Assembly: GCF_023231945.1 (NCBI RefSeq)
Contig: NZ_JAJLJH010000001.1
Location: 496,001-560,000 of the forward strand
Length of the DNA: 64,000 nucleotides
Direction of reading: 5' to 3'
Source of the DNA: Scleromatobacter humisilvae
Lineage (GTDB): Bacteria; Pseudomonadota; Gammaproteobacteria; Burkholderiales; Burkholderiaceae_C
Position numbers and translations under genes: made by a program. This document shows positions 9,737 to 53,167 of the stretch, piece by piece; position 1 is the first letter of the stretch, and every line of letters starts with the position of its first letter. Under the pieces are notes generated by a model. That model was given only the letters and a program-made list of their open reading frames with translations, was not told the origin of the DNA and made no database searches.

Positions 9737-10116
9737 CTCGCCGCGCCGCGCCCGCGCCGGTCGACGACGGCACGCTCGACCGCACGCTGCAGGCCCTGGC
9801 CGAGCCGACGCGGCGCGCGGTCGTCGTGCTGCTGCGCGACGGCCCGCAGCGCGCCGGCGAGATCGCCGACGCGCTCGCGATGTCGCGCCAGGCCATGAGC
9901 CGCCACCTGCGCGTGCTGCGCCAGGCCGGCGTCATCCACGAGGTCGGCGCCGCCAGTGCCGCCGACGATGCACGCGCCCGCACCTACCAGTTGCAGGCGC
10001 AGCCGCTGGCCGACCTGCAGGCCTGGCTCACCGACGTGCAGGCGTTCTGGGGCACGCAGATGCAGGCGTTCCGCAAGCACGCGGAGCGTGTCGCCAAAGA
10101 GCGAGGCGCGCGGTGA
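9733..10116 (+). CDS. ArsR-family transcriptional regulator
   Basis: A 127-residue winged-helix regulator starting with GTG that overlaps the VOC stop codon. The signature is ALAEPTRRAVVVLL, then IADALAMSRQAMSRHLRVLRQAG as the recognition helix, at about residues 20-66. It lacks the CVC metal motif, so it is the non-metal ArsR type that is usually linked with SRPBCC proteins. The C-terminal helix carries two Gln/Trp-rich segments. It probably represses its own operon through the palindrome at 9226-9243. Its stop overlaps the fusion gene by four bases. Confidence 0.9.
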   Translation: MTRRAAPAPVDDGTLDRTLQALAEPTRRAVVVLLRDGPQRAGEIADALAMSRQAMSRHLRVLRQAGVIHEVGAASAADDARARTYQLQAQPLADLQAWLTDVQAFWGTQMQAFRKHAERVAKERGAR

Positions 10117-11021
10117 GCGGCGATCGCGTCAGCGCCAGCGTCTTCGTCGAGGCGCCGCCCGACATCGCGTTCGAGGTCTTCGCCGAGCAGATCGACCGCT
10201 GGTGGCGCCACGGCCTGAAGTTCCGCGACGGCGAGCGCGGGTTGAGCGTGCTGCATCTCGAGCCGAAGCTCGGCGGCCGCCTGTTCGAGACGATCGCGGC
10301 ACCCGATTCGGACGCCACGCACGTCGTGCAGACCGGCACCGTCACCGAATGGAATCCGCCGCACGCGCTGCAGATCGAATGGCGCGGCGGCAACTTCGCG
10401 CCGCACGAGAAGACGACGGTGTCGGTGGCCTTCGAGCCGCGCCGCGACGGCACCCAGGTCACGCTGGTGCACGCCGGCTGGGCCTCGCTGCCGCCCGACC
10501 ACCCGGTGCGCCACGGCCAGCCGGTGCCGCGCTTCATCGCCAGCATGGGGTTGTGGTGGTCGGACCTGATGACCTCGCTGCGCATGATCGTCGACGAGGA
10601 GCGCCAGGCGCCCTGGCTGCGCGTCGCCCGCGGCGAGCTCGGCGTGCGCAGCTTCCCGGGCGGCAGCAGCAACCCGCGCGTCACCGGGTACCACGCCGGC
10701 ACCAACATCGCCGGCTACGACGACAAGGCCAACTGGTGCTCGTCGTTCGTGCAGTGGACGCTCGCGCGGGTCGGCATTGCCGGCACCGGCTCCGCGCTGG
10801 CGCGCAGCTGGCTCGCGTGGGGCGTCGCACTGGACGAGCCGAGAGTCGGCTGCATCGCGGTGTTATGGCGCGACGACAAGCACAGCTGGAAGGGCCACGT
10901 CGGCTTCTTCCTGCGCTTCGACGGCGAGACAGTGGTGCTGCTCGGCGGCAACCAGCTGGAAGCGGTGCGCGAGCACGGCTATCCGCGCACCCAGGTGCTG
11001 GCCTGGCGCTGGCCGGCCTGA
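10113..11021 (+). CDS. SRPBCC (AHSA1-like) domain fused to a TIGR02594-type cell-wall hydrolase-like domain
   Basis: A 302-residue two-domain protein. Residues 1-163 form an SRPBCC/AHSA1-like domain (EAPPDIAFEVF, then the WWSDLMTSL helix), as expected after an ArsR gene. Residues 166-302 match the TIGR02594 family of NlpC/P60/CHAP-like proteins: PWLRVARGELGV, SSNPRV, NWCSSFVQW with the likely nucleophile C209, RSWLAWG, GHVGFF with H262, and LGGNQ. No stop or start codon lies between the parts, so this is one reading frame. It starts with GTG overlapping the ArsR stop. No signal peptide is present, which is odd for a peptidoglycan enzyme. The domain pair is unusual in my knowledge. Confidence 0.85.
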   Translation: MSGDRVSASVFVEAPPDIAFEVFAEQIDRWWRHGLKFRDGERGLSVLHLEPKLGGRLFETIAAPDSDATHVVQTGTVTEWNPPHALQIEWRGGNFAPHEKTTVSVAFEPRRDGTQVTLVHAGWASLPPDHPVRHGQPVPRFIASMGLWWSDLMTSLRMIVDEERQAPWLRVARGELGVRSFPGGSSNPRVTGYHAGTNIAGYDDKANWCSSFVQWTLARVGIAGTGSALARSWLAWGVALDEPRVGCIAVLWRDDKHSWKGHVGFFLRFDGETVVLLGGNQLEAVREHGYPRTQVLAWRWPA

Positions 11022-11028
11022 ACGACGA

Positions 11029-11052
11029 AGGGCGCGACCCGCGCCGCGCCCT
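11029..11052. terminator. Bidirectional hairpin between convergent genes
   Basis: AGGGCGCG (11029-11036) pairs perfectly with CGCGCCCT (11045-11052) around an 8-base loop. It sits between the stop codons of the fusion gene and of the convergent low-complexity gene. No U-tract follows on either strand. Confidence 0.4.
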
Positions 11053-11073
11053 CGTCCCGCCCTGGGCCGTCGC

Positions 11074-11976
11074 TCAGTTCGCGCCCTGCGCGCCGCCGTT
11101 CGCCGAACCGTTGGCGCCGACGCTCACGCCGCCCTGGCGCGAGGCCGAGCCCTGCAGCGCGCCGTTGCCGGAGCCGCCGGCGGCCACCGAGCGGCGCGTC
11201 GTGGACGGCGTCGCGGACGTCGGCGAGTTGTTCGTGTGGGGCGTGGTGTCCGGCGCATCGCTGCCGCCGTTTCCATGGCCCGCAACCGTGGCCGGGCGCG
11301 CGGGCTGGGTCGAGGCCGGCTTGATGAGCGACCTGGCCGGCGATGCAGCGCTGCGGGTGCCGGTTGTCGCCGGAGCAGCAGCCGCGGGCGCGGTCGGGGT
11401 GGACGGCATCGCTGCGGTCGGCGCATTGCGCGAAGCCGAACCGGCCACGTTGCCCGCGCCCGCGAGCGTGCCCTGCGAGCCGCTCAACGCGCCATCGGCG
11501 CTGCCCGCGGCCGAGCCGGCCGCGCCGCCCAGCGCGCCGTTGGCCGAGCCCTGGACGTTGCCTGCCGCACCGCCGACGCCCGAACCCGCGCCGCCGGCCG
11601 TCGACGCGACGCCGCCGGCCGCGGCCTTGCCGTCCGCCACGCCGCTGGCCGCGGTGGCCTTGGTGGCCGAGGCCACGCCCTTGCCGTTGCTCACCGCGTC
11701 GCCGACGGCGGCCTTGCCCGAGCCGACGAGGTTGCCGGCCGCGTCCTTGACGGGCGAGGCGTCCGGCGTCGACACCGTGCCGGTCGCATTGCCCGCGACG
11801 TTGCCGACCAGCCCGCCGTGGCCCGCGCCACCCATGCCGCCCAGTCCACCGCCGAGGCCGCCGCCGTGCATGCCGCCGCCCAGCAGGCCGGCATGCGCCG
11901 AAGTGGAGATCGCGACGCAGACGGTCGACAGGGCCATCACGGCGATGGTGCGGAATGCGGATTGGTTGCGGATCAT
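11074..11976 (-). CDS. Exported Gly/Ala/Ser-rich low-complexity protein
   Basis: A 300-residue protein with a signal peptide (about 1-29, ending STSAHA-G). The mature part is almost entirely Gly, Ala, Ser, Thr and Asn, beginning with a Gly-rich run (LLGGGMHGGGLGGGLGG) and continuing with loose repeats of the type GNVxGSANGALGG. Pro/Thr-rich segments follow near the C-terminus. It has no catalytic motif and may be a surface or matrix protein. An AAAGGTG ribosome-binding site precedes the ATG at 11976. The frame extends to 12438 without support. Its biased composition makes homology detection unreliable. Confidence 0.65.
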   Translation of the reverse strand: MIRNQSAFRTIAVMALSTVCVAISTSAHAGLLGGGMHGGGLGGGLGGMGGAGHGGLVGNVAGNATGTVSTPDASPVKDAAGNLVGSGKAAVGDAVSNGKGVASATKATAASGVADGKAAAGGVASTAGGAGSGVGGAAGNVQGSANGALGGAAGSAAGSADGALSGSQGTLAGAGNVAGSASRNAPTAAMPSTPTAPAAAAPATTGTRSAASPARSLIKPASTQPARPATVAGHGNGGSDAPDTTPHTNNSPTSATPSTTRRSVAAGGSGNGALQGSASRQGGVSVGANGSANGGAQGAN

Positions 11977-12086
11977 GATGTTCACCTTTGCTTGATGTCG
12001 ATGGGCTCGCGAACGATTTCGTGGCCTGCAAAGGGAGAACGCCGGGCGAGCGCGGTTTCTTCCGGCGCGCTTGAAAAGAGTTGTAA

Positions 12087-39991: not shown

Positions 39992-42244
39992 TTACGAGCG
40001 CCGACCGACGTCGACGACATCGTCGGTCCCGGTCCGCGCCTTCGAGGCAGGCGGCATCCACGGCGCCTTGCGGGGCAGGACGACCTGCTCCATCCAGACC
40101 TGGATGTCCTCCGGAGGCAGCGGCTTGCTGAACAGGAACCCCTGCATCAGCGAGCAGCCCTCTCCGTACAGCACGTCCTGCTGCCTCTGGTTTTCGACCC
40201 CTTCGGCCACCACCTTGAGGTCGAGCGACTTCGCCAGCGCGATGATCGCGGTAACAACCGCAAGACTCTGTGGCAGCACCCCGAGATCGCGCACGAAGCT
40301 GCGGTCGATCTTGACCTCGGCGATCGGCAGCGAGGTCAGGTACGCGAGCGACGAATAGCCGGTGCCGAAGTCATCGACGGCGATCTGCACGCCGATCTCG
40401 GTGAGCCGGTGCAGCGACGGGATCACGCGCTGCAGGTCCTTCATCAGGCCCGTCTCGGTGATCTCGAGCTGGATCATGCTGTGCGGGATGCCCTCGTCGC
40501 GCACGGCCGCCGAGATCTGCTCGATCAGGTCGGTGCGCTCGAACATGCGGTTGGGCATGTTGACGGCGATCGAATCGGAGAAGCCGAACGCGTCGGCCCA
40601 GATGCGCGCCTGCTTGGCGGCCTGGCGCAGCGCCCACTCGCTCATCGGAACGATGAGGCCGGTCTCCTCGGCGACGGGGATGAAGTCGGCCGGCTGGATC
40701 AGCAGGTCGCCACGGCGCCAGCGCATCAGCGCCTCGACGCCCACCATCTTGCCGTTGCTGACGTCGACCTTGGGCTGGTAATACAGCACCAGTTCGTCGC
40801 GCTCGATCGCCTTGTGCAGCGCGCTCTCCAGCGCCAGCTTCTCGCGGCCGCGGCCGGCGAGACGAGGCGTGTAGACCAGCGCGTCGTTGCGGCCCTGCGA
40901 CTTGACGGCGTACATCGCGACGTCCGAGTTGCGCAGCAGGTCGGCCACGGTGTTGCCGTCGCGCGGGAACAGCGCGATGCCGACCGACGCGGTGGCGAAG
41001 CAGTCCTGCCCCGCCACGACGACCGGCTCGCGCAGGGCCTCGAGGATGCGAGTGGCGACGCGCTGCGCGTCGGCCTCGTCGGCGACCTCGGGCAGCAGCG
41101 CGACGAACTCGTCGCCGCCGAGACGGCCCACGGCCTCCAGCGTACGGTGCGAGCGCGAGCCCGCGGTCTCGATCACGCCCTCGAACAGCTGCTCGCAATG
41201 GCGCACGCAGCCGCGCAGGCGGAACGCGACCTCCATCAACAGCTCGTCGCCAGCGGCGTGGCCCAGCGTGTCGTTGATGACCTTGAAGCGGTCGAGATCG
41301 ATCAGCAGCAGCGCCACCTGGTGGCCCAGCCGGCGGCCGAATTCGAGTGCCCGCTCGGCGCGCCAGATCAGCTGGCGACGATTCGGCAGGTTGGTCAACG
41401 CGTCGTAGTTGGCCAGGTGGCGGATGCGGTCTTCCGCGATGCGGCGGTCGGTCACGTCCTGCACGATGCCCGTGTAGGCGCAGCAGTGGCCGTGCTCGTC
41501 GAACTCGGGCTCGGCCTCGACGTGGATGATGCGGAAGCGGCCGTCGGGCAGCGTCATCGGCACGTCGGTGGCGATGACGGAGACCTGGTACAGGATCTGG
41601 CGCGCCAGCCGCACCAGCGGCTCGCGGTCGGTGGGCGCGATCATGCGCAGCATGTCGCGCAGGTTGACGCGGTCGTCCGGCCCGTAGCCGAACACGCGCA
41701 AACCCTCTTCCGACAGCTCGAGCCCGTTGACGAAGCTGCGGCCTTCGTCCTGCCACCAGTCGAACGAGCCCATGCGGGCGAGATCCTGCGCGCGGGCGAG
41801 CTTGGCCTTGCTGCGTTCCAGCTCCTGCCGCGTGCGCGACGCGCGCAGCAGGTAGCGCAGGCGCCCGGCGAGCAGGCTCCACTGCGTGGCCTTGACGAAG
41901 AAGTCCGTCGCGCCAACCTGGTAGGCGCGGTTGATCGAGGCCTCGTCGTCGAGGCCGGTCAGCATCAGCACCGGCACGTTGTCGAAGCCTGGCATGTTGC
42001 GCAGCGCGACACAGGTTTCGAAGCCGTCGAGGCCGGGCATGATGGCGTCGAGCACGACGACGTCGGGCGTCCAGCTGGCCAGGCGCGTGAGCGCTTCCTC
42101 GCCGCCGGTGGTGGAGGTGATGTCGAAGCCGCGATCGCGCAGCGCCGCGGCGGTCATCAGGAGGTTGACCTCGTCGTCGTCGACGAGCAGCACCGTCGGA
42201 CGACGATCCGTTGCTTCCAGGCTCACGCCGTGGTGAAGCGTCAT
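39992..42244 (-). CDS. Response regulator with PAS, GGDEF and EAL domains
   Basis: A 750-residue protein. Receiver domain about 16-135 with phospho-acceptor D66 (VVVLDAIMP). A PAS domain about 155-270. GGDEF about 275-470 with GGDEF (376-380); the I-site position reads RTLE (367-370) rather than RxxD, so allosteric inhibition is doubtful. EAL about 475-735 with the motif GVEALMRW (E504, A505, L506) and the YYQPKVD strand. It could both make and degrade c-di-GMP, or only degrade it using the GGDEF as a GTP sensor. The start overlaps the Hpt stop by four bases (ATGA), which indicates a coupled phosphorelay. Confidence 0.93.
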   Translation of the reverse strand: MTLHHGVSLEATDRRPTVLLVDDDEVNLLMTAAALRDRGFDITSTTGGEEALTRLASWTPDVVVLDAIMPGLDGFETCVALRNMPGFDNVPVLMLTGLDDEASINRAYQVGATDFFVKATQWSLLAGRLRYLLRASRTRQELERSKAKLARAQDLARMGSFDWWQDEGRSFVNGLELSEEGLRVFGYGPDDRVNLRDMLRMIAPTDREPLVRLARQILYQVSVIATDVPMTLPDGRFRIIHVEAEPEFDEHGHCCAYTGIVQDVTDRRIAEDRIRHLANYDALTNLPNRRQLIWRAERALEFGRRLGHQVALLLIDLDRFKVINDTLGHAAGDELLMEVAFRLRGCVRHCEQLFEGVIETAGSRSHRTLEAVGRLGGDEFVALLPEVADEADAQRVATRILEALREPVVVAGQDCFATASVGIALFPRDGNTVADLLRNSDVAMYAVKSQGRNDALVYTPRLAGRGREKLALESALHKAIERDELVLYYQPKVDVSNGKMVGVEALMRWRRGDLLIQPADFIPVAEETGLIVPMSEWALRQAAKQARIWADAFGFSDSIAVNMPNRMFERTDLIEQISAAVRDEGIPHSMIQLEITETGLMKDLQRVIPSLHRLTEIGVQIAVDDFGTGYSSLAYLTSLPIAEVKIDRSFVRDLGVLPQSLAVVTAIIALAKSLDLKVVAEGVENQRQQDVLYGEGCSLMQGFLFSKPLPPEDIQVWMEQVVLPRKAPWMPPASKARTGTDDVVDVGRRS

Positions 42245-42651
42245 GAGGCCGCCGCTTCGAGTTGCTGCAGGGTCTGGCGGACGGCGCCGTCCACGCGCTG
42301 GACCTCGGCCTGGAACTGGTCGATCAGCGGCTGCGCGCCGTTGCTGTCGCCGGCGCGCAGCAGGCGCTCGATCTCGGCGCACAGCGCGGACAGCGCCAGC
42401 GCCCCGATGCTGGCCGACGACGACTTGAGCGTGTGGGCGACTCGCGAGACCTGGTCCCAGGCGCCTTCCGTGCGCGCCAGCTGCAGTTGGGCGACCAGCT
42501 TCGCCAGCGAGGTCTGGTAGGTGGCCAGCACGCGCTTGACCAACTGGGCCTTGCCGTCCGGATCCAGCGCCCGCAACTCGGCCATGCAGGCGGCATCCAG
42601 CACCGGCTTCGTCGCCGTGCCATCGATCCCGGAGTTATTCAAATCGACCAT
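42241..42651 (-). CDS. Hpt-domain phosphotransfer protein
   Basis: A 136-residue helical protein with the histidine phosphotransfer motif VAHTLKSSSASIG (H73). It is predicted to carry phosphoryl groups between a hybrid kinase and the receiver of the coupled gene downstream. Four-base overlap with that gene. No hybrid kinase is adjacent, although a simple histidine kinase is divergent at 42952. Confidence 0.9.
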   Translation of the reverse strand: MVDLNNSGIDGTATKPVLDAACMAELRALDPDGKAQLVKRVLATYQTSLAKLVAQLQLARTEGAWDQVSRVAHTLKSSSASIGALALSALCAEIERLLRAGDSNGAQPLIDQFQAEVQRVDGAVRQTLQQLEAAAS

Positions 42652-42951
42652 CGCACCCTGAATATTTGGATCTCATCCATTCTCGCCCTGTAATGTAAGC
42701 ATGTCCGTGCGCGACAAGGGCGTCAATGGCGAAATACTCCGCACGAGGCAGGCCTTTGGCCGGCGGACGGGCGTCGGCCAAGGCTGAGCAATCCGGACGC
42801 CTGCGGGTGCCACGATCGCGTCCGGACGGGAAATCTGTCACGACCTCCCCACACGGCTCTTCGGCAGCGCCAACGATTACTGAAGGGCTCGCGCGCGGGA
42901 TCGTCGATCTTTGCTCCTTACAATCCGCCCCATGTCGCTTCCGCAGACTCG
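42652..42951. other. Divergent promoter region, Hpt operon versus histidine kinase
   Basis: Exactly 300 bases without a gene, between the Hpt start and the histidine kinase start. It contains a TACAAT -10-like hexamer (42919-42924) upstream of the kinase, without a clear -35. The Hpt-side start is flanked by a more AT-rich stretch (42650-42720). No riboswitch, palindrome or small gene was recognised. Confidence 0.45.
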
Positions 42952-44541
42952 ATGACTCCCACACTCGCCGTGTTCGCGATCCTGGCGCTGGCCGGCTTCG
43001 GCGCCATCAGCGCGCTGGTGGGTGCGTTGTGGATGAAGGCCCGCGGCGCCGCCGCGCTGCGCGAGGCCACCGAGGATCGGACCCGCCTGCTCGCGCTGGC
43101 CGACCACTGGATGTGGGAGACCGACGCCGCCCACCGCCTGACCACCTGGCGCCCGCCGGCGCGCCGCCCGGCCGGCTGGAAGATCGGCCCGCCGCTGGGC
43201 GCCGCGCTCACCGCGATCGCCCAGCCGCTGCCCGGCGCCGAGGGCATTTCCGCTGCGACGGCCGGTTCGCCCGCCAGCTCGCCGCTGTCGCGCCAGCTGG
43301 CGGCGCACGCGCCGATCACCGAGCAGCGCGTGCTGCTGCAGCTCGGCGAGACGAGCTCGCTGTGGAGCGTGCGCGGCGAGCCGCGCCACGACGGCGAGGG
43401 GTACTTCCTCGGGTATTTCGGCACGGCCCGGCCGGTCGGCGAGAGCGACGCCGCCGGCTTCGGCCACGCCGCGCTGGTCGAGCTGCTTGCCCAGCCCGAC
43501 GCCACCGTGCTCGTGTTCCGCCGGCTCGACGCCGGCGCGCCCTGGCGCCTCGAGGCCCAGGGCGCGGGCACGCGCGCGCTGTTCGGCATGTCGCTGTCGC
43601 CGGAGGACGAGTTCACCGGCGCGCCCGACTGGGCCGCCGTCTGCGCCCGCCTGCCCGCGGCGATCGACCGCGCGCTGGCCGAGATGCCCGCCGGCGAGAC
43701 GCGCGCAGTCGGCGAATGGCGCGTCAGCTGGACGTACGTCGCCAGCGAGGACGACGCGCACGCCGGCCGCATCGTGATCCTGCGCGCCGCGGCCGCCCCG
43801 GCGGCGCCCGCCCTGCCCGCGCCCGCGCCGCCCGCGGCCGTCGCGGCGGAGCCGTCGGCCGCGACCGCCGCCGACAACGCCGACCAGGAGTCCTTCATCT
43901 ATACGGTCTCGCACGACCTGCGCGCACCGATCCGCGTCGTCGAGGGCTTCGCCCGCATCCTCAAGGAGGACTACGGCCGCTTCCTCGACCGCATCGGCAA
44001 CGACCACACCGACCGCATCCTGGCCGCCGCCGCGCGCATGAACAGCATGATCGACTCGCTGCTCGCGCTGTCGCGCCTGCAGTCGCAGCCGATCAAGCGC
44101 CAGCCGGTCGACCTGTCGCAGCTCGCGCGCTATGTGCTGGAAGACCTTCGCAGCAACGAACCGGAGCGTGAGGCGGACATCCACATCGAGCCGGGCCTCG
44201 TGATCCAGGGCGACCCGACGCTGATGCGCATCGCCATCGAGAACCTGGTCGGCAACGCGTGGAAGTACAGCAGCCAGAGCCCGACCACGCGCATCGAACT
44301 CAAGCGCGAGATGCTCGCCGGCACGCCCACCTTCGTCGTCGCCGACGCCGGCGCCGGCTTCGACATGCGCTTCGCCGACCGCCTGTTCGGCGTGTTCCAG
44401 CGGCTGCACAGCGCCAAGGACTTCCAGGGCACGGGCGTCGGGCTGGCGTCGGTGCGGCGCATCATCCGGCGCCACGGCGGCGACATCTGGGCCGAGTCGG
44501 AAGTCGGCAAGGGCGCACGGTTCTACTTCACGTTGCCCTGA
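42952..44541 (+). CDS. Sensor histidine kinase
   Basis: A 529-residue kinase. One N-terminal membrane segment (about 5-28), then a PAS-like region (about 40-280) with an Ala/Pro-rich linker, then HisKA with the phosphorylated H321 (TVSHDLRAP), and a HATPase_c domain with the N box (IAIENLVGNAWKYSS), the G box DAGAGFD and GTGVGLASVRR. The closing segment GGDIWAESEVGKGARFYFTL is like bacteriophytochrome-type kinases. No receiver domain. Partner may be the Hpt or receiver genes divergent from it. Its end overlaps the convergent lipoprotein gene by 19 bases. Confidence 0.9.
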   Translation: MTPTLAVFAILALAGFGAISALVGALWMKARGAAALREATEDRTRLLALADHWMWETDAAHRLTTWRPPARRPAGWKIGPPLGAALTAIAQPLPGAEGISAATAGSPASSPLSRQLAAHAPITEQRVLLQLGETSSLWSVRGEPRHDGEGYFLGYFGTARPVGESDAAGFGHAALVELLAQPDATVLVFRRLDAGAPWRLEAQGAGTRALFGMSLSPEDEFTGAPDWAAVCARLPAAIDRALAEMPAGETRAVGEWRVSWTYVASEDDAHAGRIVILRAAAAPAAPALPAPAPPAAVAAEPSAATAADNADQESFIYTVSHDLRAPIRVVEGFARILKEDYGRFLDRIGNDHTDRILAAAARMNSMIDSLLALSRLQSQPIKRQPVDLSQLARYVLEDLRSNEPEREADIHIEPGLVIQGDPTLMRIAIENLVGNAWKYSSQSPTTRIELKREMLAGTPTFVVADAGAGFDMRFADRLFGVFQRLHSAKDFQGTGVGLASVRRIIRRHGGDIWAESEVGKGARFYFTLP

Positions 44542-44999
44542 GCTTCGCCCGCGCGGGCCGGCCGTTGCCTGCGCGCGTAGGCGAACAGGCTGAAGGCGAC
44601 GATGAACAGCGGCATGCCGGCGACGACCGCCACGTCGGGCATGTACCAGCCTCGGCGCTGTTCGTAGGCCTGCTGCGGCGTCAGCAGCGTGTTCACCTCG
44701 GGATGCGCCGGATCGTAGAAGACGGTCACCGGATCGCCCTTTCGCGCCGAGTCGCACCGGATCAAACTGGCCGGCGCCTTCGCCCGATGCTCGACGCCGT
44801 TGGCGACGAACGAATAGATCACCAGGCCGTGCGAGCCGCAGTCCACGTCGGCGACCGAGCCCGCGACCGTCGCATTCGATTCGACGAGGCGGCGATATTC
44901 GTGCGCGTCGTTGTAGCAACCGGTCAGCAGGAGACTCGCGCCGACGACCAGTGATGCGACGCGGGCGGCGCTCGATGCAAGGTGTGCGGCGAAGTTCAT
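44523..44999 (-). CDS. Lipoprotein with DUF3592-like domain
   Basis: A 158-residue protein with a lipobox LLTGC (C28) after a hydrophobic N-terminus. The middle part (VVTVF-type segment DPVTVFYDPAHPEVN) resembles DUF3592 membrane proteins, which usually begin with a plain membrane helix. A C-terminal membrane segment (VAVVAGMPLFIVAFSLFAY) remains. It would be a lipid-anchored and membrane-spanning protein. Function unknown. Start 44999 is chosen because it precedes the hydrophobic stretch; earlier Met codons exist. Confidence 0.65.
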   Translation of the reverse strand: MNFAAHLASSAARVASLVVGASLLLTGCYNDAHEYRRLVESNATVAGSVADVDCGSHGLVIYSFVANGVEHRAKAPASLIRCDSARKGDPVTVFYDPAHPEVNTLLTPQQAYEQRRGWYMPDVAVVAGMPLFIVAFSLFAYARRQRPARAGEAQGNVK

Positions 45000-45113
45000 C
45001 GTCGCGATCATAGCCACGGCGTCGACCAGGACCTTTCATGCGCCGGGCTCGGCCGCTCGATCTCGACGCGCGCTTACTTGACGCCGGCAATCGCATCGAT
45101 GCCCTCCGGGAAA

Positions 45114-45133
45114 GAATTTCCGCGAGGGAATTC
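45114..45133. repeat. Imperfect inverted repeat in the 45000-45205 gap
   Basis: GAATTTCC (45114-45121) faces GGGAATTC (45126-45133) with one mismatch and a four-base spacer. It could be a weak hairpin or operator downstream of the trypsin-like gene. Nothing else was recognised in the roughly 200-base gap. Confidence 0.3.
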
Positions 45134-45205
45134 GCGGCTCGCGGGCCGGAGCCGCCGTCAGTGTGACTGGGGCGCCGTCAACGGGTCCTCCAGTCGCGCG
45201 GTCGA

Positions 45206-47257
45206 TCAGCGCGCGCTGCCCAGCACGGCCTTCGCGCGCTCGACCTGGTCGGAGCCCACCACGAGCGCGCCCTCCCCGACGCCCCACTGCAGGGGACGCC
45301 GATCGAACGGCAGGCCTGCCTCGGCCCTCAGCAACTGCAGCTCGAAGCGCAGCGCGGATGCCGCGGCGCAGCACGTCGCCAGCGCAGCTTCCAGCTCGTC
45401 GCGCTGGGCGGCGATCAGGTGTTCCAGCAGCGTGCTCGTCGCGGAGTGCTCGAGCCGGTCCTCGTACACCAGGGCGAGGTCCTGCACGCGCGTGGACGTC
45501 GCGTGGCCGAGCAGCGCGATGCCGCGCTGAACCTTGTCGATGTCGAACGACTCGCGCTGGTCGAAGAACGTCGGCGACACCCAGGCGTCGAGCCACCGTC
45601 CGACCAGGGCGCCGAGCGCCTTCGCATCGGGCCTGCCCGTGCCGACGTAGATCGCATAGTCGGCTTGCGCACCGACGTCGCCGGCCTGGACACGCAGCAT
45701 CGCCTTCTGCTCGCAGCGCAAGTCGTAGAGCACCTGCGTGAACGGCGCCGGTTGGCTGCGCATCTTCGTCAGCGTGTATCGATCCGACACGATGCGCCGC
45801 GCGCTGGGCTCGCCCGAAGACAGCAGCGAGGACGCGAGCGTCGCCTCGCCGATGGCACCCACCCACGCGACGCCACGGCAATCGCCACCGGACGCTGGCG
45901 CCACGACCAGGTGATCGGTCGCATTGCCCGCGTCGAAATCCACCTTGCCTTGCACGAGCGAGCCGCGCAGCAGCGGCGACGCACCCGCCTCGTTCCGATC
46001 CGGGCCGGAATGCTCGTCGGGCGAGAACGGCACGGCCTTGACGAACATCCGCACTTCCTGCGTCCCGCCCGCCTGCGGCAGTTCGGCCAGCACGTTGTCG
46101 GTATAGGGCAGCCGGAGCACCTGCCCCTCCTGCAACTGCCGCAGCGACAGCTGCTGCGATTGCGTGATGTCCTTCCTGCTGATGAACCCGTGGCTCTGGA
46201 CACGCAGCCTGACGTCGCCCAGGCCGTCGACCGGAAGGGGACTGGAGACCACTTCACGAAGATCCTTGGACAGTCCGAACGTGTGCTCGCGCCGGTTCTC
46301 GTCCAGCAGCATCATCTCGACGCCGTTGAACCATCCATCGAAGACGCCCTTCGGCAAGCCGGAGATGCGGCTGATCGAGATCCGGATCCAGCGCTCGTCG
46401 CCGTCCTGCCCGAATCCGCCCCATCGTGTCCGCCGCAAGAAGATCCTGCCGTCGGCGCCCTCGTCCTCGATCGCCGCGTCGTCGCCCGGGCGGGCGGCGG
46501 CCGGCGATGCGGCGAGGGTCGTGGCCGACGGGCCGGCAGCCTCCTGCACGCCGACGCTGAAGCCGCTGCGCCGCAGGAACTCCAGCGCGGATTCGACCGG
46601 CAGCGCCGCGACGGTGGGCGCCTGGGCCACCGCGAGGATCATGCCGACGAGATGCCCGTCGGCGGTGAACAAGCCCCCGCCGGAATGCCCTTCGTGGACA
46701 TAGTCGCTCTGGAACAGGATCCTGTCCGACTCCCGGCGATCGAACAGGTCGGGACGCAGCGGCATCCCCCATCCGAGTCCGCCCGGGTAGCCGACCGGGT
46801 AGACCTCTGTGCGTTGCGGCAGCGCCGAGGATCCCGTGATCAGTTCGAAAGGAAGGCGGGCGGCGCCGTCCAGCCCCGCTTCGTGCAAGCCCCTGATCTC
46901 GATCACCGCAATGTCGTCCCGGAGGTCATGTGCGGGAAGCACCTTCGCGGCGATCGGCGTCCGCGGCAGATCCTTGAAATAGACGTCCGTGCGCGTCGCG
47001 GTCTCCGTCGAACCCTGCGGCGCCGAGGGATCGCGCACCAGGTGATCGGCCGTGAACGCATAGGCCGTGTCGCCCGCCACCGAGAACACGATGCCGGCGC
47101 CCTGGTGCGTGCGCCCGCCCAACCGGGTCTCGATCATCACCACCAGGCGCTGCGCATCGTCCAGTCGCGCGGCCCGCGCCGGAGGATGAAGCGCGGCGAG
47201 CAGCACGAGGCCGCACAGCGCCGCGAGCCACCGGGAACCTGCGCGACGCACGTTCAC
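45206..47257 (-). CDS. Exported trypsin-like (S1/DegP-type) serine protease
   Basis: A 683-residue protein with a signal peptide (about 1-29). The protease domain (about 30-240) has the triad H72 (FTADHLV), D115 (DDIAVIEI) and S192 (GHSGGGLF). The remaining 440 residues are an unrecognised beta-rich region with a second domain of unknown function and no PDZ. The start is uncertain: GTG 47257 overlaps the upstream stop as GTGA and gives a normal signal peptide; ATG 47275 is a second choice. It is the last gene of an overlapping three-gene operon. Confidence 0.82.
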   Translation of the reverse strand: MNVRRAGSRWLAALCGLVLLAALHPPARAARLDDAQRLVVMIETRLGGRTHQGAGIVFSVAGDTAYAFTADHLVRDPSAPQGSTETATRTDVYFKDLPRTPIAAKVLPAHDLRDDIAVIEIRGLHEAGLDGAARLPFELITGSSALPQRTEVYPVGYPGGLGWGMPLRPDLFDRRESDRILFQSDYVHEGHSGGGLFTADGHLVGMILAVAQAPTVAALPVESALEFLRRSGFSVGVQEAAGPSATTLAASPAAARPGDDAAIEDEGADGRIFLRRTRWGGFGQDGDERWIRISISRISGLPKGVFDGWFNGVEMMLLDENRREHTFGLSKDLREVVSSPLPVDGLGDVRLRVQSHGFISRKDITQSQQLSLRQLQEGQVLRLPYTDNVLAELPQAGGTQEVRMFVKAVPFSPDEHSGPDRNEAGASPLLRGSLVQGKVDFDAGNATDHLVVAPASGGDCRGVAWVGAIGEATLASSLLSSGEPSARRIVSDRYTLTKMRSQPAPFTQVLYDLRCEQKAMLRVQAGDVGAQADYAIYVGTGRPDAKALGALVGRWLDAWVSPTFFDQRESFDIDKVQRGIALLGHATSTRVQDLALVYEDRLEHSATSTLLEHLIAAQRDELEAALATCCAAASALRFELQLLRAEAGLPFDRRPLQWGVGEGALVVGSDQVERAKAVLGSAR

Positions 47258-48399
47258 TTGCTGCCGTCCATCCATCGCCACACTCCCAGCAAGACGCCCA
47301 GGATCGCCAGGCCGCTCGACCACGTGAGCAGCAGCAGGTCCTGCGACAACCACCATTCGAGAAGTCGCGGCGTGAGGGACTGGCGCGCGTAGGACGGTCC
47401 GATCTGCACGTCGCGTGCCTTGCCGTCGAAGTCGAGCGATACGGCCGAGGGTGCGACGCGCAGGGTGCGCATCCGGCCGCTGGCCGATTCGAGCCCCAGC
47501 AATTCGTTCTTCTGCAGCGTCCGGGCCGGCGACTTCGCCAAGCCGAACTGCAGCTTGCCCTCGAGAAGCGTGGATTGCACTTCGAGGGTGCCGTCGGGCA
47601 TGCGCTCATCGGCGTACAGGCGAAGGTCCGTCACCGGAAGATTCGGTTGAAGCTCGATCGCGGCCGCGACCGGCGCCATGCGCAGCGTCAGCGCGCGTTC
47701 GGCCGGGCAAGCCGAGCCCGGTGCCTTGCCAACCGTCCCGGTCGTGGCCTCGACGGGTGCGACGACGATCCGTGCCCGCTGCGCCGGCCGCAAGACAAGC
47801 TCGCTGTTCGACACGATCCGCACCGGCCCCGTGGCCTGCAGCGCCAACGGCTCGTCCAGCCCGCACACCGTCAGCCCGATGCTGCCATCGCCGAAGCTGG
47901 CGTCGACGACGACCTGGCTGCCGGCCGGGACGTCGGGCAGCTGCACCTCGAGGTGCGCGCCGGCCGCGTCGCCCGTCGACTCGAGCCGGACGACGCGCGC
48001 CGCGAACGTCGTCGGCGCCTCCTGGTCGGGTGCCACCTGGGTCAACGCCTGGCCTTCGATCGTGATCCAGCGGACCTCGAAATGCCGCGCCAGCGTCACG
48101 GCCTGGCTGGTGACGATGGCTGCCTGCGTCGCCTTGGCATGGAGACCGATGCGCACACTGGGCAGCCGGATGAGTGCGAGGCTGGCGAGGACGAGCGCGA
48201 CCGCAGCGACGATCAGCACGTGAACCATCCGCCGCGGGCGCCGCGGCTCGCGGATCAACGCGAGCGTCTTGCTGAGCGCTTCGCAGTCGGCGAGTTCGTC
48301 CCGGTCGACCTTGCCGTCGGCGGCCAGGACGGCGTCGAGCAGCGCCGCCTTGCGGGCTTCCAGAAGGCTCTCGAGCCGGGCGTCGCCGTCATCGGGCAC
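47254..48399 (-). CDS. Unrecognised membrane protein of the trypsin operon
   Basis: A 381-residue protein. A cytoplasmic N-terminal helical part (about 1-55, containing AADGKVDRDELADCE, which looks like a small TerB- or EF-hand-like helix) precedes a membrane segment (about 58-78, VAAVALVLASLALI), a long beta-rich region (about 80-345), and a second membrane segment near the C-terminus (about 355-375, LLTWSSGLAILGVLLGVW). GTG 48399 with GAGGG before it is the start. It overlaps the trypsin gene and the upstream gene. No family was recognised. It may bind the secreted protease. Confidence 0.7.
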   Translation of the reverse strand: MPDDGDARLESLLEARKAALLDAVLAADGKVDRDELADCEALSKTLALIREPRRPRRMVHVLIVAAVALVLASLALIRLPSVRIGLHAKATQAAIVTSQAVTLARHFEVRWITIEGQALTQVAPDQEAPTTFAARVVRLESTGDAAGAHLEVQLPDVPAGSQVVVDASFGDGSIGLTVCGLDEPLALQATGPVRIVSNSELVLRPAQRARIVVAPVEATTGTVGKAPGSACPAERALTLRMAPVAAAIELQPNLPVTDLRLYADERMPDGTLEVQSTLLEGKLQFGLAKSPARTLQKNELLGLESASGRMRTLRVAPSAVSLDFDGKARDVQIGPSYARQSLTPRLLEWWLSQDLLLLTWSSGLAILGVLLGVWRWMDGSK

Positions 48400-49237
48400 G
48401 GCTTGCGGCCCTCGGCTCCCGCACCGGGTTCGACGGCATCTGGACGACGACGTGCGCACTCGGTGGCGTCATGTTGCTCGCGACGACCGGCTCGCCGACG
48501 ATGTCGAGATAGCAGGGCTCGCGCGACCCGGGCGCGGCGACCTCGAGCGTGACGACTTCGTCCGCCCGGAAGGGGCCGCCGGCCCGACCCCTGGCGACGC
48601 TCTGGGCAGGCATGCCGCTGGATTCGATCCGCAGACACTCCCAGCTGATCGCGAAAAGCGCAACGGTGGACGTGACCAGCACCCGGACGCCCGCGCCCTC
48701 CGTCGCACCGCCGGAAAGCGACAGCGGCAGCAATATGGGCCACGTGACCTGGCCGATCCGGGCGCGCGCCTGGACACGCAGCGCGATTTCATCGCCACGC
48801 AGCGACAGGCCGCGGACCACGTCGGTGGGCCAGTCGAAGCGGCCGCCGCCCAGGCTCGCCGTGGCGTCCATGCGATAGAACAATCCCGGCCGCAGGCTGA
48901 TTGCCTGGATCTGGACGGCATCGCCGATCGCGCCCGACACGCGGCCCGACCATCCGAGGTGCAGCACGCCCTCCCCCGGCAGTGCGGCCGCCGGCGCGCC
49001 GGTCGCCACCGCGAGCACGGTGATGGCCGCATCGGACGCGTGCGGCGACCAGTAGAGTCCCTCGCAGCGGTTGCCGCGCAGGCGATAGCCGAGCGGGTTG
49101 TCGTCCACGGGGCGGATGTCGTCGCGACACTTCGAATCGATCGCGAGCGCCGAGGCCGGCAGCACGAGCGTCGTCCACGCAAGCGCGGCAGCCCACGATC
49201 GCAAGCCGCGCCCGCCGAGTGACAGAAGACTCTTCAC
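48389..49237 (-). CDS. Unrecognised exported protein of the trypsin operon
   Basis: A 282-residue exported protein with signal peptide (about 1-32, TTLVLPASALA). The mature part is beta-rich, beginning with Cys-containing segments (KCRDD, GNRCEGLYWSP), where two Cys could pair. A hydrophobic stretch (VLVTSTVALFAISWECL) lies near the middle. No family was recognised. GGAGGA at 49250-49245 precedes the GTG start at 49237 with correct spacing; ATG 49252 lies within that site. It is the first gene of the operon. Confidence 0.72.
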   Translation of the reverse strand: MKSLLSLGGRGLRSWAAALAWTTLVLPASALAIDSKCRDDIRPVDDNPLGYRLRGNRCEGLYWSPHASDAAITVLAVATGAPAAALPGEGVLHLGWSGRVSGAIGDAVQIQAISLRPGLFYRMDATASLGGGRFDWPTDVVRGLSLRGDEIALRVQARARIGQVTWPILLPLSLSGGATEGAGVRVLVTSTVALFAISWECLRIESSGMPAQSVARGRAGGPFRADEVVTLEVAAPGSREPCYLDIVGEPVVASNMTPPSAHVVVQMPSNPVREPRAASRAR

Positions 49238-49435
49238 CCCATCTTCCTCCATGGAAGTTTCGCCACGGGCCGCCGCGCATGCATCGAATCGCTTCGTCGA
49301 GTTGCATCATGCGACAACACGGCCGGCTCAGGCAACTGTCGCCACGAGCCTCCCCCCATCCTGCATCGCGCGCGGGCAAGGCGACAGGCTCGACGTACCA
49401 TTCGACGGGGCCACGTGGCTCCGTCGGAGGGTTCC

Positions 49436-50137
49436 ATGGCGAGTTCAGGGTCGGTTTCGCTGGCGATCGTCGAGAAGGACGGCAAGCGCGTGCTCGCGAC
49501 CGATCCAGACGCCTCGTCGGCACTTCTCGATCTCCAGGAAGTCACGCTGGCCGAGAAGGGCGAGACGGTGCTGTACGACGTGGTCGGCCGACGCATCGCG
49601 ATCGATCCGGCAGGCGACCTGGTCGCCGAACTGCAGGTGTCGCGGAGAAAGAAGGCGCTCGCCGACCGGCTCGGCGAGCGCCTGTCGACGCTCGTCTCCG
49701 CCATCCTCGCGGCCAGCGCCTTCGGCGGGCTGCTGCTGCTCTGGTACCTGCTCGCGGTCCGCCTCGAGGAGACGGTCGGCTGGGGCGTCGCGCATGCCGA
49801 CTGGGTGGCCTTTGCCACCGTCTTCGGCTACTTCGTCTGGCGGGGTTCCACGGCCAAGGACCCGTTGATCCAGAAGGTCTGCGGCTTCGGGGCCTTCAGT
49901 TTCGGAATCCTGGCGCTGGTGTTCGTCCAGGTGCAGTGGATGGGCGCGGGCGATCCGCAGTGGCGGCGTTCGCTCGCCTACCAGGCCATCGGCGCCGACG
50001 TGCTGGCGCACCGCGAGAAGTGGCTCAGCGCGCTGGCGATCTACGCGCCGACCATCCTGCTCGTGCTCCGGTTCGCGGGCCTCGGGCGCGCGGCCGAGAC
50101 GCTGGAGCGACTCGGCATCGGCAAGGAGAAGAAGTGA
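49436..50137 (+). CDS. Unrecognised membrane protein divergent from the trypsin operon
   Basis: A 233-residue protein. An N-terminal soluble part (about 1-75) with VEKDGKRVLATDPDASSALL and VGRRIAIDPAGDLVAEL, then about four membrane segments: about 85-105, 120-137, 150-168 and 200-217. A GGAGG at 49426-49430 five bases before ATG 49436 fixes the start. It is divergent from the trypsin operon by about 200 bases and may be part of the same unit. No function can be named. Confidence 0.7.
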   Translation: MASSGSVSLAIVEKDGKRVLATDPDASSALLDLQEVTLAEKGETVLYDVVGRRIAIDPAGDLVAELQVSRRKKALADRLGERLSTLVSAILAASAFGGLLLLWYLLAVRLEETVGWGVAHADWVAFATVFGYFVWRGSTAKDPLIQKVCGFGAFSFGILALVFVQVQWMGAGDPQWRRSLAYQAIGADVLAHREKWLSALAIYAPTILLVLRFAGLGRAAETLERLGIGKEKK

Positions 50138-50159
50138 GCGCCTTCCGGCGCCGCGAGCC

Positions 50160-51602
50160 TCAGCCCGGCTGGCCGGCCGCGCGCAGCAAGGCGCGCTGCG
50201 CACCCGTCACGGCGCCCAGGCGCTCGCGCAGGTAGTCCGCCACCGTCGGCGCCTGGCACATCGCCACGTTGAAGCGGATGTGGGGATCGGCGTTGCCGTC
50301 CGCCATGAAGGTGGCGCCGCGCACCAGCAGGATCTTGTTGCGCAGTGCATCCTGCACCAGCAGGTCGACGTCGACGCCCTCGGGCACCTCGCCCCACAGG
50401 AACAGGCCGCCCTCGCCGGGATGGTCGAAGCGGATGCCCGCCGAGGCGAGCTGCTTCTCGCTCGCGTGACGCGCGCTCGCGAGGCGGCGTTGCAGGCGGT
50501 CGAGGTGCTTGCGCCAGCGGCCGGCGGCGAGCACCTCCAGCATCACGAGTTCGTTGAGCGCCGGCGTGGTCAGCACCGAGTAGATCTTCTGGCGCAGCAG
50601 CACCTTCAGCAGCGCCGGATCGGCCGCGATGTAGCCCATGCGCAGCGCCGGGCTCAGCGCCTTGCAGAAGCTCGAGTAGTAGATGACGCGGTCCAGGCCC
50701 GACAGCGCCGCGAGCCGCGTCGTCTGGCCGGGATGGAAGTGGCCCTGGACGTCGTCCTCGGCGATCAGGAAGCCGTACTGCTGCGCCAGCACCAGCAGCT
50801 TGTGCAGGTTGGCCGCGCTGCTGCCCCAGCCGGTGGGGTTGTGAAGCGTCGTCTGCAGAAACGCGAGGCGCGGCTTGTGCTCGCGGCAGGCGGCCTCCAT
50901 CTGCGCGAGGTCGACGCCGTCGTGCCGGCGCGCGATCGGCAGCACGCGGATGCCCTCCTGCTGCAGGCGGCCGAACATCAGGAAGTAGCCGGGATCCTCC
51001 ACCAGCACCGCGTCGCCGGGCTTGAGGAAGCTGCGGCAGATCATGTCGATCGCGTGCGTGCCGCCGTAGGTGGTGAGGATGCGGCCGGCGTCGACGGGAA
51101 TGCCCATGCCGCGCAGCATCAGCGCGAGCCGCTCGCGCAGTTCCGGCATGCCTTGCGGCGGGCAGCGCGAGGCCATGCCGGCGACGCTGCGCGCCAGCGC
51201 GCGCTGCACCGCGGCGGCGGGCACCGCGTCCTCCAGCCACGCGGGCGGCAGCGCGCCGCTGCTGGCCAGCAGCATGCCGGCGCGCTGGTCGTTGGCCTGC
51301 TGCGCGAGCCAGACGGGCTCCTGTTCCTCGCCGGCCTCGAGCGCGACCTCCTCGGGCATCGCGCCCTGGCGCGCGTTGACGAAGTAGCCGGCGGTGCCGC
51401 GCGCGTCGATCACGCCCGACGCGACGAGGCGGTCGTAGGCCGTGATCACCGTGTTGGGGCTGACCGCCAGTTCGCTCGCGAGCTGGCGGATCGACGTCAG
51501 CCGCGCGCCCGCCGGGAGCTGGCCGCGCGCGACGAACTCGCGCAGCCGCGCCTCGATCTGGTCGGCCAGCGCGATGGGGGACGAGCGATCGAGCGTGAAC
51601 AT
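50160..51602 (-). CDS. MocR-type regulator (GntR HTH plus PLP aminotransferase fold)
   Basis: A 480-residue regulator. GntR winged helix at about 10-75 (RLTSIRQLASELAVSPNTVITAYDRL). The aminotransferase-like domain at about 105-470 has HNPTG (254-258), AEDDVQGHF with D283 or D284 near the PLP pyridine, and the PLP-binding lysine K314 (SFCKALSPALRMGY), so it should bind PLP. MocR proteins activate or repress amino-acid or vitamin-linked genes. The gene overlaps the LysE stop by one base and is its downstream partner. Confidence 0.92.
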   Translation of the reverse strand: MFTLDRSSPIALADQIEARLREFVARGQLPAGARLTSIRQLASELAVSPNTVITAYDRLVASGVIDARGTAGYFVNARQGAMPEEVALEAGEEQEPVWLAQQANDQRAGMLLASSGALPPAWLEDAVPAAAVQRALARSVAGMASRCPPQGMPELRERLALMLRGMGIPVDAGRILTTYGGTHAIDMICRSFLKPGDAVLVEDPGYFLMFGRLQQEGIRVLPIARRHDGVDLAQMEAACREHKPRLAFLQTTLHNPTGWGSSAANLHKLLVLAQQYGFLIAEDDVQGHFHPGQTTRLAALSGLDRVIYYSSFCKALSPALRMGYIAADPALLKVLLRQKIYSVLTTPALNELVMLEVLAAGRWRKHLDRLQRRLASARHASEKQLASAGIRFDHPGEGGLFLWGEVPEGVDVDLLVQDALRNKILLVRGATFMADGNADPHIRFNVAMCQAPTVADYLRERLGAVTGAQRALLRAAGQPG

Positions 51603-52186
51603 CAGCGAAGAATGTCGATGGCCAGCACGACGAGCGCGGCGGCCATCGCGACGTTGAAGACACGCTGCCTGCGCGGATCGCTCAGCACGCCGCGCATCGC
51701 CACGCCGAACAGCGCCCAGGCCGAGATGCACGGAAAGCCGATGACCGCGCCGATCAGGCTGATCGCCAGCCCCGCCGTCAGCGGGTTCGCGCCGGCCGGC
51801 ATGAAAACCGAGGCCAGCGTGATCGCGCGGATCCAGCTCTTGGGATTGAAGGCCTGGAACATCACGCCCTCGAGGAACGTGAGCGGCCGCAGCGCCTGCG
51901 CGTCGCCCATCCGCGACTGCGCCAGCTTCCAGGCGAGCCACACCAGGTACAGCGCGCCGCCGGTGCGCAGCACGACCTGCGCGACGGGGAACGCGACGAA
52001 CAGCTGGCCCAGGCCGTTGCAGGCGATGAGCGTCAGCGCGACGTTGCCCATCACGCAGCCCAGGACCTGCGGCAGCGTCAGGCGATAGCCGAAGTTGGCG
52101 CCCGACGCCGTCAGCATCAGGTTGTTCGGGCCCGGGGTGATCGACATCACGAAACAATACATCATCATCGGCAGCAGCTGCGTCAT
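51602..52186 (-). CDS. LysE family amino-acid exporter
   Basis: A 194-residue membrane protein with about six segments. Start MTQLLPMMMYCFVMSITPGPNN contains the LysE-family signature TPGPNN. The conserved FNPKSW segment is also present. Substrate unknown (amino acid or homoserine lactone type). ATG 52186 is the natural start; the open frame runs to 52246. It is the first gene of the LysE-MocR operon. Confidence 0.9.
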   Translation of the reverse strand: MTQLLPMMMYCFVMSITPGPNNLMLTASGANFGYRLTLPQVLGCVMGNVALTLIACNGLGQLFVAFPVAQVVLRTGGALYLVWLAWKLAQSRMGDAQALRPLTFLEGVMFQAFNPKSWIRAITLASVFMPAGANPLTAGLAISLIGAVIGFPCISAWALFGVAMRGVLSDPRRQRVFNVAMAAALVVLAIDILR

Positions 52187-52315
52187 CGGGTCGGGCTCCA
52201 GGTTGGAGACCGAGCGTAGGGACGATGAGGGCGCCGGCCAAGGCACAGGGCGCGTCGATGGCGGACGCGCTGTATCAGCGTCGACGGGGGTACAGCGGCG
52301 CCCGAGGGGTCTGGC

Positions 52316-53011
52316 TCAGGCGTTGCCCGGGCGCGCCAGCAACTCCACCGCATCCAGCAGCCGCTCGGCCTCGGCCTTCAGCAGCAGGCCGTCGGCCGAC
52401 GCCATGCGGTTCAGGCGGGCCAGCGCCTCGCGGCGCGACAGCGAGTAGCGGTGCATCAGCACGCCCACCGCGACGGCCACCGAGTCGGCCAGCGGATCGG
52501 GCGTGTTGTTGGGCGCGGTGACCGGCGAGGCCGACGGCTCGTGCAGCGCGCCGAAGCCGGAGGTCGGCGCGAACGGGTCGGGGCGGATGTGCTCGGGCGC
52601 GACGTGCGGCGCGGGCGCGGGCGTGAGCGCGCTCGCCCGGCGCGCGCGGGCCGTCACCAGCGCGGCCTCCACGGTCGGCACGATCTGCGCGATGTCCAGC
52701 GGCTTGACCAGGTAGGCGACCGCGCCGAGCGCCTTCACCTGCGCCACGGTGGCGTCGTCGGCGAACGCGGACAGGAACATGAACGGCGTCTGCAGCGACT
52801 CGCGCAGGTACGCGGCGACGTCGAAGCCGCTCATGCCTTCCATGCGGATGTCCAGCAGCGCGAGGTCGGGCCGGTGCTGGCGCGCCAGCAGGATCGCGTC
52901 GTCGCCGTTGTCGGCGTCGATGATCTCGTAGCCGGCCTTGGCCAGGCCGTGCGTGACCGTCGCCAGCACGAGGCGGTCGTCGTCGACGACGAGGATCTTG
53001 CCCTTGCTCAT
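52316..53011 (-). CDS. Response regulator with ANTAR RNA-binding output domain
   Basis: A 231-residue protein with receiver domain (about 4-120, phospho-acceptor D54, and K at VKPL), an Ala/Pro-rich linker, and a C-terminal ANTAR domain (about 175-228, VGVLMHRYSLSRREALARLNRMA). ANTAR proteins bind paired hairpins in leaders to antiterminate transcription. This is the PdtaR/AmiR-type layout. The HisKA_2 kinase at 55790 is the nearest kinase of the right class. It is transcribed alone, after a gap from the cytochrome-like gene. Confidence 0.9.
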   Translation of the reverse strand: MSKGKILVVDDDRLVLATVTHGLAKAGYEIIDADNGDDAILLARQHRPDLALLDIRMEGMSGFDVAAYLRESLQTPFMFLSAFADDATVAQVKALGAVAYLVKPLDIAQIVPTVEAALVTARARRASALTPAPAPHVAPEHIRPDPFAPTSGFGALHEPSASPVTAPNNTPDPLADSVAVAVGVLMHRYSLSRREALARLNRMASADGLLLKAEAERLLDAVELLARPGNA

Positions 53012-53167
53012 CGCAGGCGGCTCCCGCTGGTCGTACGCGACGACGGCGTGCCGTGGGTGACGCTGCGGGGAGGGCGGACGGTGGTCATTGGAGGCCATTT
53101 TGGCCTAATCGGCCAAACGGCGGGTTGCTGTAGGTAAACCGGCGTTCGCCGCCGGGCGCCGTCCGGC

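Follow-up and report, generated by a model that had tools for sequence, protein, structure and literature searches.

A mobile three-gene cassette with a trypsin-like protein in Scleromatobacter humisilvae and in several phyla, and its possible role in envelope sensing or defence

Three overlapping genes, here called A, B and C, lie in a 64,000-nt stretch of Scleromatobacter humisilvae DNA (NZ_JAJLJH010000001.1, 496,001-560,000; this whole stretch is referred to below as the window). Together they form a mobile cassette that is found in several phyla, often with a TIR domain, and that may be an undescribed envelope sensing or defence system. Gene A (48389..49237, minus strand), recognized from its translation and a profile of 22 other A proteins, encodes a probably exported protein; gene B (47254..48399, minus strand), from translation and hydropathy, a membrane protein in which two helices flank a large domain; and gene C (45206..47257, minus strand), from Pfam, hydropathy and a protease tree, a probably exported trypsin-like protein with the triad H72/D115/S192. 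A and B overlap by 11 bases (B starts at 48399, A ends at 48389), B and C by 4 bases (C starts at 47257, B ends at 47254), and no promoter or terminator match was found at 49200-49500. The original prediction for this DNA had placed a fourth reading frame, P0004, beside these three, and all four are present, with A, B and C overlapping on the minus strand as it described. That the A, B and C frames are more than chance follows from the recurrence of the same three families elsewhere in the same order.

This order was scanned in 26 stretches using profiles for A, B, TIR and C, with the window's own A and B among the profile rows. Because the stretches were chosen by a match to A, B or C, the neighbours and not the match itself count as evidence; L048, L049, G983 and the duplicate loci L059, L062, L063, L066 and L068 stand outside the 26. 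A was found in 23 stretches, and the next labelled gene on the same strand was B in 19 of them, including L045, where the B gene (6575-7715) is split over frames and only its last piece was matched. B was also found in 23 stretches and was followed by C as the next labelled gene in 21, with gaps of at most 436 bases and up to three C genes after B. The exceptions to A-B order are L047, where A lies ~6 kb off and on the opposite strand; L060, with the order B, C, A, C; L065, at a contig end, in a genome whose L093 carries B and two C genes at another contig end; and L114, where an in-frame stop interrupts A (10660-11361) and neither B nor C was found nearby, possibly a remnant. Those to B-C order are L111, which is cut by a contig end, and L117 (7362-9586), in which a window-type A and B precede two unknown genes and no trypsin was found. 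The cassette idea was to fall if its families never co-occurred elsewhere. For A, B and C they do, and the proposal of an envelope cassette of fixed order, with a trypsin-like enzyme and two uncharacterized partners, survives for these three genes and not for P0004.

The Caballeronia plasmid pSBC2-5 (L036) has annotated B (P0005) and C (P0006, with WD40 repeats) genes, and an unannotated A-like open reading frame (ORF) at L036:3847-4758 overlaps the start of B, where the model predicts A. This ORF was the best of 41 but reached only E 0.007 (hhalign 72%; BLAST to window A, 4e-5). The pSBC2-5 B protein scored E 1.5 and 13 against the smaller profiles and E 1.3e-4 (hhalign 95.9%) against the full set, and both it and the A-like ORF fall under the threshold of the order scan.

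Recurrence in other genomes is sporadic; the counts that follow include the window's own or the centre genome, and the searches overlap in genomes. With single sequences, B was detected in one of 80 genomes (its own) and C in two (its own and G063); G063, found through C, carries A-like, B-like and trypsin genes at two loci, arranged in that order, and profiles built from these extended the search. The B profile matched 7 of 399 genomes of the order (E <=0.01; two of these matches were weak and were set aside) and 3 of 369 genomes of the class, one weak, while the A profile matched 5 of 300 genomes of the order and 12 of 285 in the phylum of the Nitrospirales record, two of the latter with an in-frame stop. 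Weak B matches in G728 and G569 were rejected because their regions (L048, L049) show no cassette by eye, and one in G983 because of internal stops. A scan of a contig collection yielded eight A loci, from Burkholderiales, Nitrosomonas, Nitrospirales (two), Ectothiorhodospiraceae, Acidobacteriota and two less precisely placed proteobacteria. No cassette relative was found in viral contigs, and among plasmids C (P0001) matched one record and P0002 and the B protein of L034 none. A first contig scan of the genome collection using P0001 alone found no relative, and the P0001 matches seen in 18 further genomes from the same family were set aside as chance or generic, since they cover only parts of query residues 99-244. 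Extra TIR proteins occur near the cassette in L060, L112 and L113 and, by eye, in L069. At L060, a TIR-WD40 protein (L060:323-3259) and a DUF4062 protein (9688-11997) flank a TIR cassette with two trypsin genes, of which the one scanned by Pfam has an FGE domain.

Sequence comparison supports membership of the window in this cassette well for B and C and adequately for A. Against profiles from which the window had been removed, window A gave E 1.2e-8 (22 rows, hhalign 97.3%) and window B E 1.4e-21 (23 rows, hhalign 98.7%), and window C falls in the cassette branch of the protease tree. Smaller sets without the window gave 7.5e-5 for A and 1e-14 for B, and the first ten core A proteins and the corresponding core rows alone gave 3.3 for A and 0.0011 for B; the best score among reversed-sequence controls in these tests was 9.3. 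With the window's whole subgroup also removed, B still matched at E 8.6e-7. L045 is the closest relative, with BLAST E-values of 2.9e-13 (A) and 3.2e-20 (a fragment of B).

The trypsin-like nature of window C (P0001) is clear from a match to Trypsin_2 (PF13365) over residues 53-206 (E 1.4e-11; 45.8 bits against a cut-off of 27.6) together with the catalytic residues H72 in TADH, D115 in DDIAV and S192 in GHSGGG, which are the features of a Trypsin_2 peptidase. A signal-like hydrophobic stretch at the N-terminus suggests that the protein is exported. The last ~440 residues match no Pfam family, no PDZ domain, the mark of HtrA/DegS when it follows the protease, was found by Pfam to E 5, and comparison with NCBIfam gave sub-cutoff matches only. 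Both the intact triad and the C-terminal region of ~440 residues lacking PDZ or a known family had been recognized in the original prediction, and Pfam indeed sees Trypsin_2 alone. Its further description of the unit as proteolytic may hold for window C, which keeps all three residues, and may hold for only part of the family: His and Ser are retained in 37 of 37 C proteins, whereas the Asp position holds Asp in 10, Gly in 26 and Ser in one. With the Asp lost in most C proteins, binding may matter more than cleavage.

A tree of the 16 cassette C proteins first found (21 fetched later were left out) placed all of them on one side of a branch with support 99/96, apart from 23 other trypsins; these are the trypsins of the window's own genome and matches of P0001 rather than a broad sample, and of 25 gathered two under 140 residues were dropped. 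Within the cassette side, the proteases of the window, pSBC2-5 and L045 group together (support 97/98). The C-terminal tails are variable: of the 20 C proteins (out of 37) scanned by Pfam, 7 carry an FGE-sulfatase domain (lectin fold), and others have WD40, PEGA and Sel1, Sel1 in L034 lying just below the cut-off.

One of these tails is diversified by a retroelement. At L108:5954-15181, a bAvd gene (6e-19), a reverse transcriptase (RVT_1, 7e-22) and a 115-base template repeat lie beside C, and the variable repeat is the end of the neighbouring C gene, within its FGE domain. Of 23 differences between template and variable repeat, 22 fall at template adenines, which make up 35 of the 115 bases. 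This combination of reverse transcriptase, Avd and adenine-specific differences was found in L108 only and is not claimed for the window; the sequence pattern is characteristic of a diversity-generating retroelement, here with the lectin-fold domain of a putatively exported trypsin as its target. A regular-expression scan for reverse transcriptases in seven loci, a set that holds few of the Nitrospirota loci, found none.

In window B, hydrophobic helices occur around residues 59 and 355, in agreement with the N- and C-terminal membrane helices described for it. The basic residues before the first helix would place the N-terminus in the cytoplasm by the positive-inside rule, and the hydropathy profile suggests a short cytoplasmic N-terminal segment followed by a large periplasmic middle domain. 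A TIR domain is present on 14 of the 23 B proteins of the order scan, one G063 B protein starting with it (TIR_2, 1.5e-22), and all 14 retain a W-V-x-x-E motif, which we take to be the NADase glutamate motif. Window B has no TIR match in Pfam and no PADLOC match; its N-terminal ~55 residues look like a helical hairpin, and a similar segment is seen, by eye only, in the B proteins of pSBC2-5, L045 and L117.

Structures were modelled with AlphaFold2 for A and B of the relative L064, not for the window proteins. The B model (8 rows; pLDDT 86.2 for the best and 59.2 for the worst of five models) has a helix at 11-34, mostly beta structure at 39-333 and a helix at 346-374, and its matches to the PDB reached a Foldseek probability of at most 0.23 among the 50 rows listed and a VIA Z of at most 4.0. 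The A model (9 rows; pLDDT 91.8) is almost all beta and, by our reading, is predicted to consist of two beta-sandwich (Ig/FnIII-like) domains; its matches in Foldseek and VIA are of generic Ig/FnIII type, the best VIA Z of 6.6 being in the range of common arrangements. The searches with these models show neither a new nor an old fold, and A and B profile searches of solved structures gave no match. In window A itself, a signal-like hydrophobic N-terminal stretch, from which export is likely, and four cysteines (37, 58, 201, 242) agree with the exported Cys-containing partner that had been described. Both partners are also unrecognized as stated: neither Pfam nor NCBIfam gives a family above its cut-off, and PADLOC and PHROGs give no match at the limits applied.

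The cassette lies in an inserted island of ~5.6 kb (44542..50159, strandless, limits approximate) that extends between the ends of two genes identified by eye, one for a histidine kinase and the other of aminotransferase type. In the congener G003, DNA matching window 42174-44559 stands directly beside DNA matching 50200-53137, and G001 has the same order with ~135 bases between the flanks; the contiguous empty site in these two congeners indicates that the island is absent there. In G002 the region is split over contigs and does not decide the matter. Searches found none of window B, C or P0004 in the three congeners, two of which are 88-93% complete. P0004 (49436..50137, plus strand), a divergent membrane protein with three hydrophobic segments and no persuasive family match, lies in the same island and had been proposed as a fourth cassette member. 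It was seen in one of 60 searched genomes, the window's own, and among 1,829 ORFs of 31 stretches, some overlapping, it matched itself only; the four-gene cassette was therefore rejected, as no relative of P0004 was seen beside other cassettes. Downstream of C, also inside the island, a DUF3592 protein (44523..45017, minus strand; Pfam DUF3592, 6e-7) has a lipobox-like start, and at the island edge its final codons run into the end of the adjacent kinase gene. In the 31 stretches phmmer matched it to itself only, and it was seen beside no other cassette.

How such a cassette could work is suggested by its parts. In the periplasm, exported C would use its variable C-terminal part to capture a ligand or a component of an invader, and its trypsin fold could then cleave a partner or, in Asp-less members, only grip it. 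A, with two predicted sandwich domains, would be a likely adaptor or substrate, and B would relay the signal across the inner membrane, starting at its periplasmic domain and ending in an output on the cytoplasmic side. This output would, for the majority of B proteins found, be the TIR domain with WVxxE, consuming NAD or making a signal; in window B, a short, probably helical segment may instead bring in a further protein from the cytoplasm. Recognition outside the cytoplasm is suggested by the C tail, which looks exported, varies and in one case is hypermutated; inward signalling is suggested by B with its two helices and TIR, and a role in conflict by the island nature and the extra TIR proteins near some cassettes. 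We consider the chances about even that the window holds a member of a conserved mobile envelope recognition-and-signalling cassette serving, most likely, conflict or anti-invader defence.

Several observations weigh against this interpretation. Window A without its subgroup gives E 0.92 (hhalign 76%, 2.2e-5), and its link to the more distant A proteins runs largely via its nearest relatives. Replacement of the Asp in 27 of 37 C proteins means that cleavage may not be the common function, and the tree rows L036, L069 and L045 are long and their placement unsure. Window C has no lectin domain and window B no TIR domain by Pfam, PADLOC matches are confined to TIR and trypsin domains, and a relative of the L108 reverse transcriptase was found in one of 31 stretches, some overlapping. 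The L064 B model has no clear resemblance to any solved structure, which leaves the role of the B domain a guess. Finally, several cassettes, such as L035 and L046, have housekeeping genes (named by eye) around them.

The main rival of a defence role is envelope stress or quality control, in which C, as a periplasmic protease of DegS/HtrA type, would detect damaged proteins and together with A cut B, reporting envelope stress to the inside. The intact triad and signal-like start of the window enzyme and a membrane partner with two helices would suit it, but window C has no PDZ domain, the catalytic Asp is mostly missing among C proteins, and the distribution is sporadic (B and C not found in three of three congeners, the A profile matching few genomes of the order, own included). 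TIR, FGE and a retroelement-diversified tail would also be odd for housekeeping. We regard quality control as rather unlikely, and defence as favoured over it by the TIR domains, the lectin-fold tails and the one retroelement-diversified C. The same lectin-like tails could alternatively serve surface structure or adhesion, with A and the tails binding carbohydrate or partners in the envelope or matrix, B anchoring or maturing them and TIR acting as a scaffold only. In this direction point the weak resemblance of the A model to Ig/FnIII-type domains, some of them from adhesins or matrix proteins (Z <=6.6), and the cellular targets of retroelements, which, in the parts of the source seen, often have signal peptides or transmembrane segments and binding or adhesion domains (PMC8144416). 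Against it stand the retention of WVxxE in 14 of 14 TIR domains and of the trypsin His and Ser in every C protein, and we hold adhesion to be distinctly improbable. That the genes are chance neighbours in a strain-specific island is hardly credible: P0004 and the DUF3592 gene, neither seen with other cassettes, do share the island, but A, B and C keep the same order in genomes of several phyla and their proteases cluster together in the tree. The order scan refutes chance association for these three genes; for P0004 and the DUF3592 gene that reading still stands.

Among known systems, HtrA and DegS are trypsin-fold envelope proteases with a membrane partner, and the cassette resembles them in this; it differs in that window C lacks PDZ and lies on a separate branch from those trypsins of its own genome that entered the tree. 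In the animal Toll pathway, an exported serine protease acts upstream of a membrane protein with a cytoplasmic TIR domain. The cassette has the same layout of protease and membrane TIR, an analogy only, with no homology claimed beyond TIR, and cassette B ends in a second membrane helix. It is possible, though less likely than not, that the cassette is an envelope counterpart of Toll, in which exported trypsin-fold proteins with exchangeable lectin-like recognition domains, hypermutated by a retroelement in at least one lineage, switch on, by way of a two-sandwich adaptor, a transmembrane protein with a cytoplasmic TIR as its output, this TIR being replaced by a small adaptor segment in the window's branch. 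With respect to Thoeris, four TIR-B proteins match ThsB models in PADLOC over TIR only, no ThsA model appears, and window B matches neither.

Trypsin-like proteases also take part in bacterial immunity in nuclease-protease pairs, where, in the parts of the paper seen, they form fusions with defence enzymes and have an MBL-fold nuclease as partner (PMC12799240). The trypsin domain of L064 C has LmuA as its best PADLOC match (1.8e-12); no MBL-fold or NucA nuclease match was found in window A or B by Pfam to E 5. The MoxR-vWA ternary (VMAP, iSTAND) and EAD conflict systems, as described in passages of PMC7159879 and PMC8195603, share trypsin-like peptidases, TIR, FGE-type lectin, PEGA and Sel1 with the cassette, some have retroelements, and some iSTAND versions are placed at the membrane. 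They differ in being centred on NTPases and adaptor domains, whereas C here looks exported, and those passages do not name the A and B families. No NTPase, of MoxR type or another, and no vWA component was found in window A, B or C or in the relatives' cassette proteins scanned by Pfam, nor in the DUF3592 protein, the one other window neighbour scanned. The antigen sensors of multicellular bacteria come close in having an FGE/CLec variable target with trypsin and TIR nearby, some targets being predicted as secreted or periplasmic; there, as far as the parts seen go, trypsin and sensor are separate proteins in NTPase systems, whereas in L108 the putatively exported trypsin itself bears the variable FGE domain, beside a transmembrane TIR protein (PMC10907252).

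In summary, TIR, trypsin, FGE and retroelement are already known from bacterial conflict systems, mostly around NTPases (PMC7159879, PMC8195603 and PMC10907252, in part), and the A-B-C arrangement was not found described in a limited literature search that included parts of these and of PMC12799240, PMC10053308 and PMC8144416; within that search, the cassette appears to combine known parts with a new core. It defines two uncharacterized protein families and a testable three-gene system, with a periplasmic complex and TIR-dependent loss of NAD as its predictions. The related trypsin/TIR conflict systems are built around NTPases and, in the parts of those papers seen, are mostly cytoplasmic; if the proposed role is true, bacteria would here be detecting invaders at the level of the periplasm and relaying the signal to the inside, in one lineage with a device for hypermutation built in.

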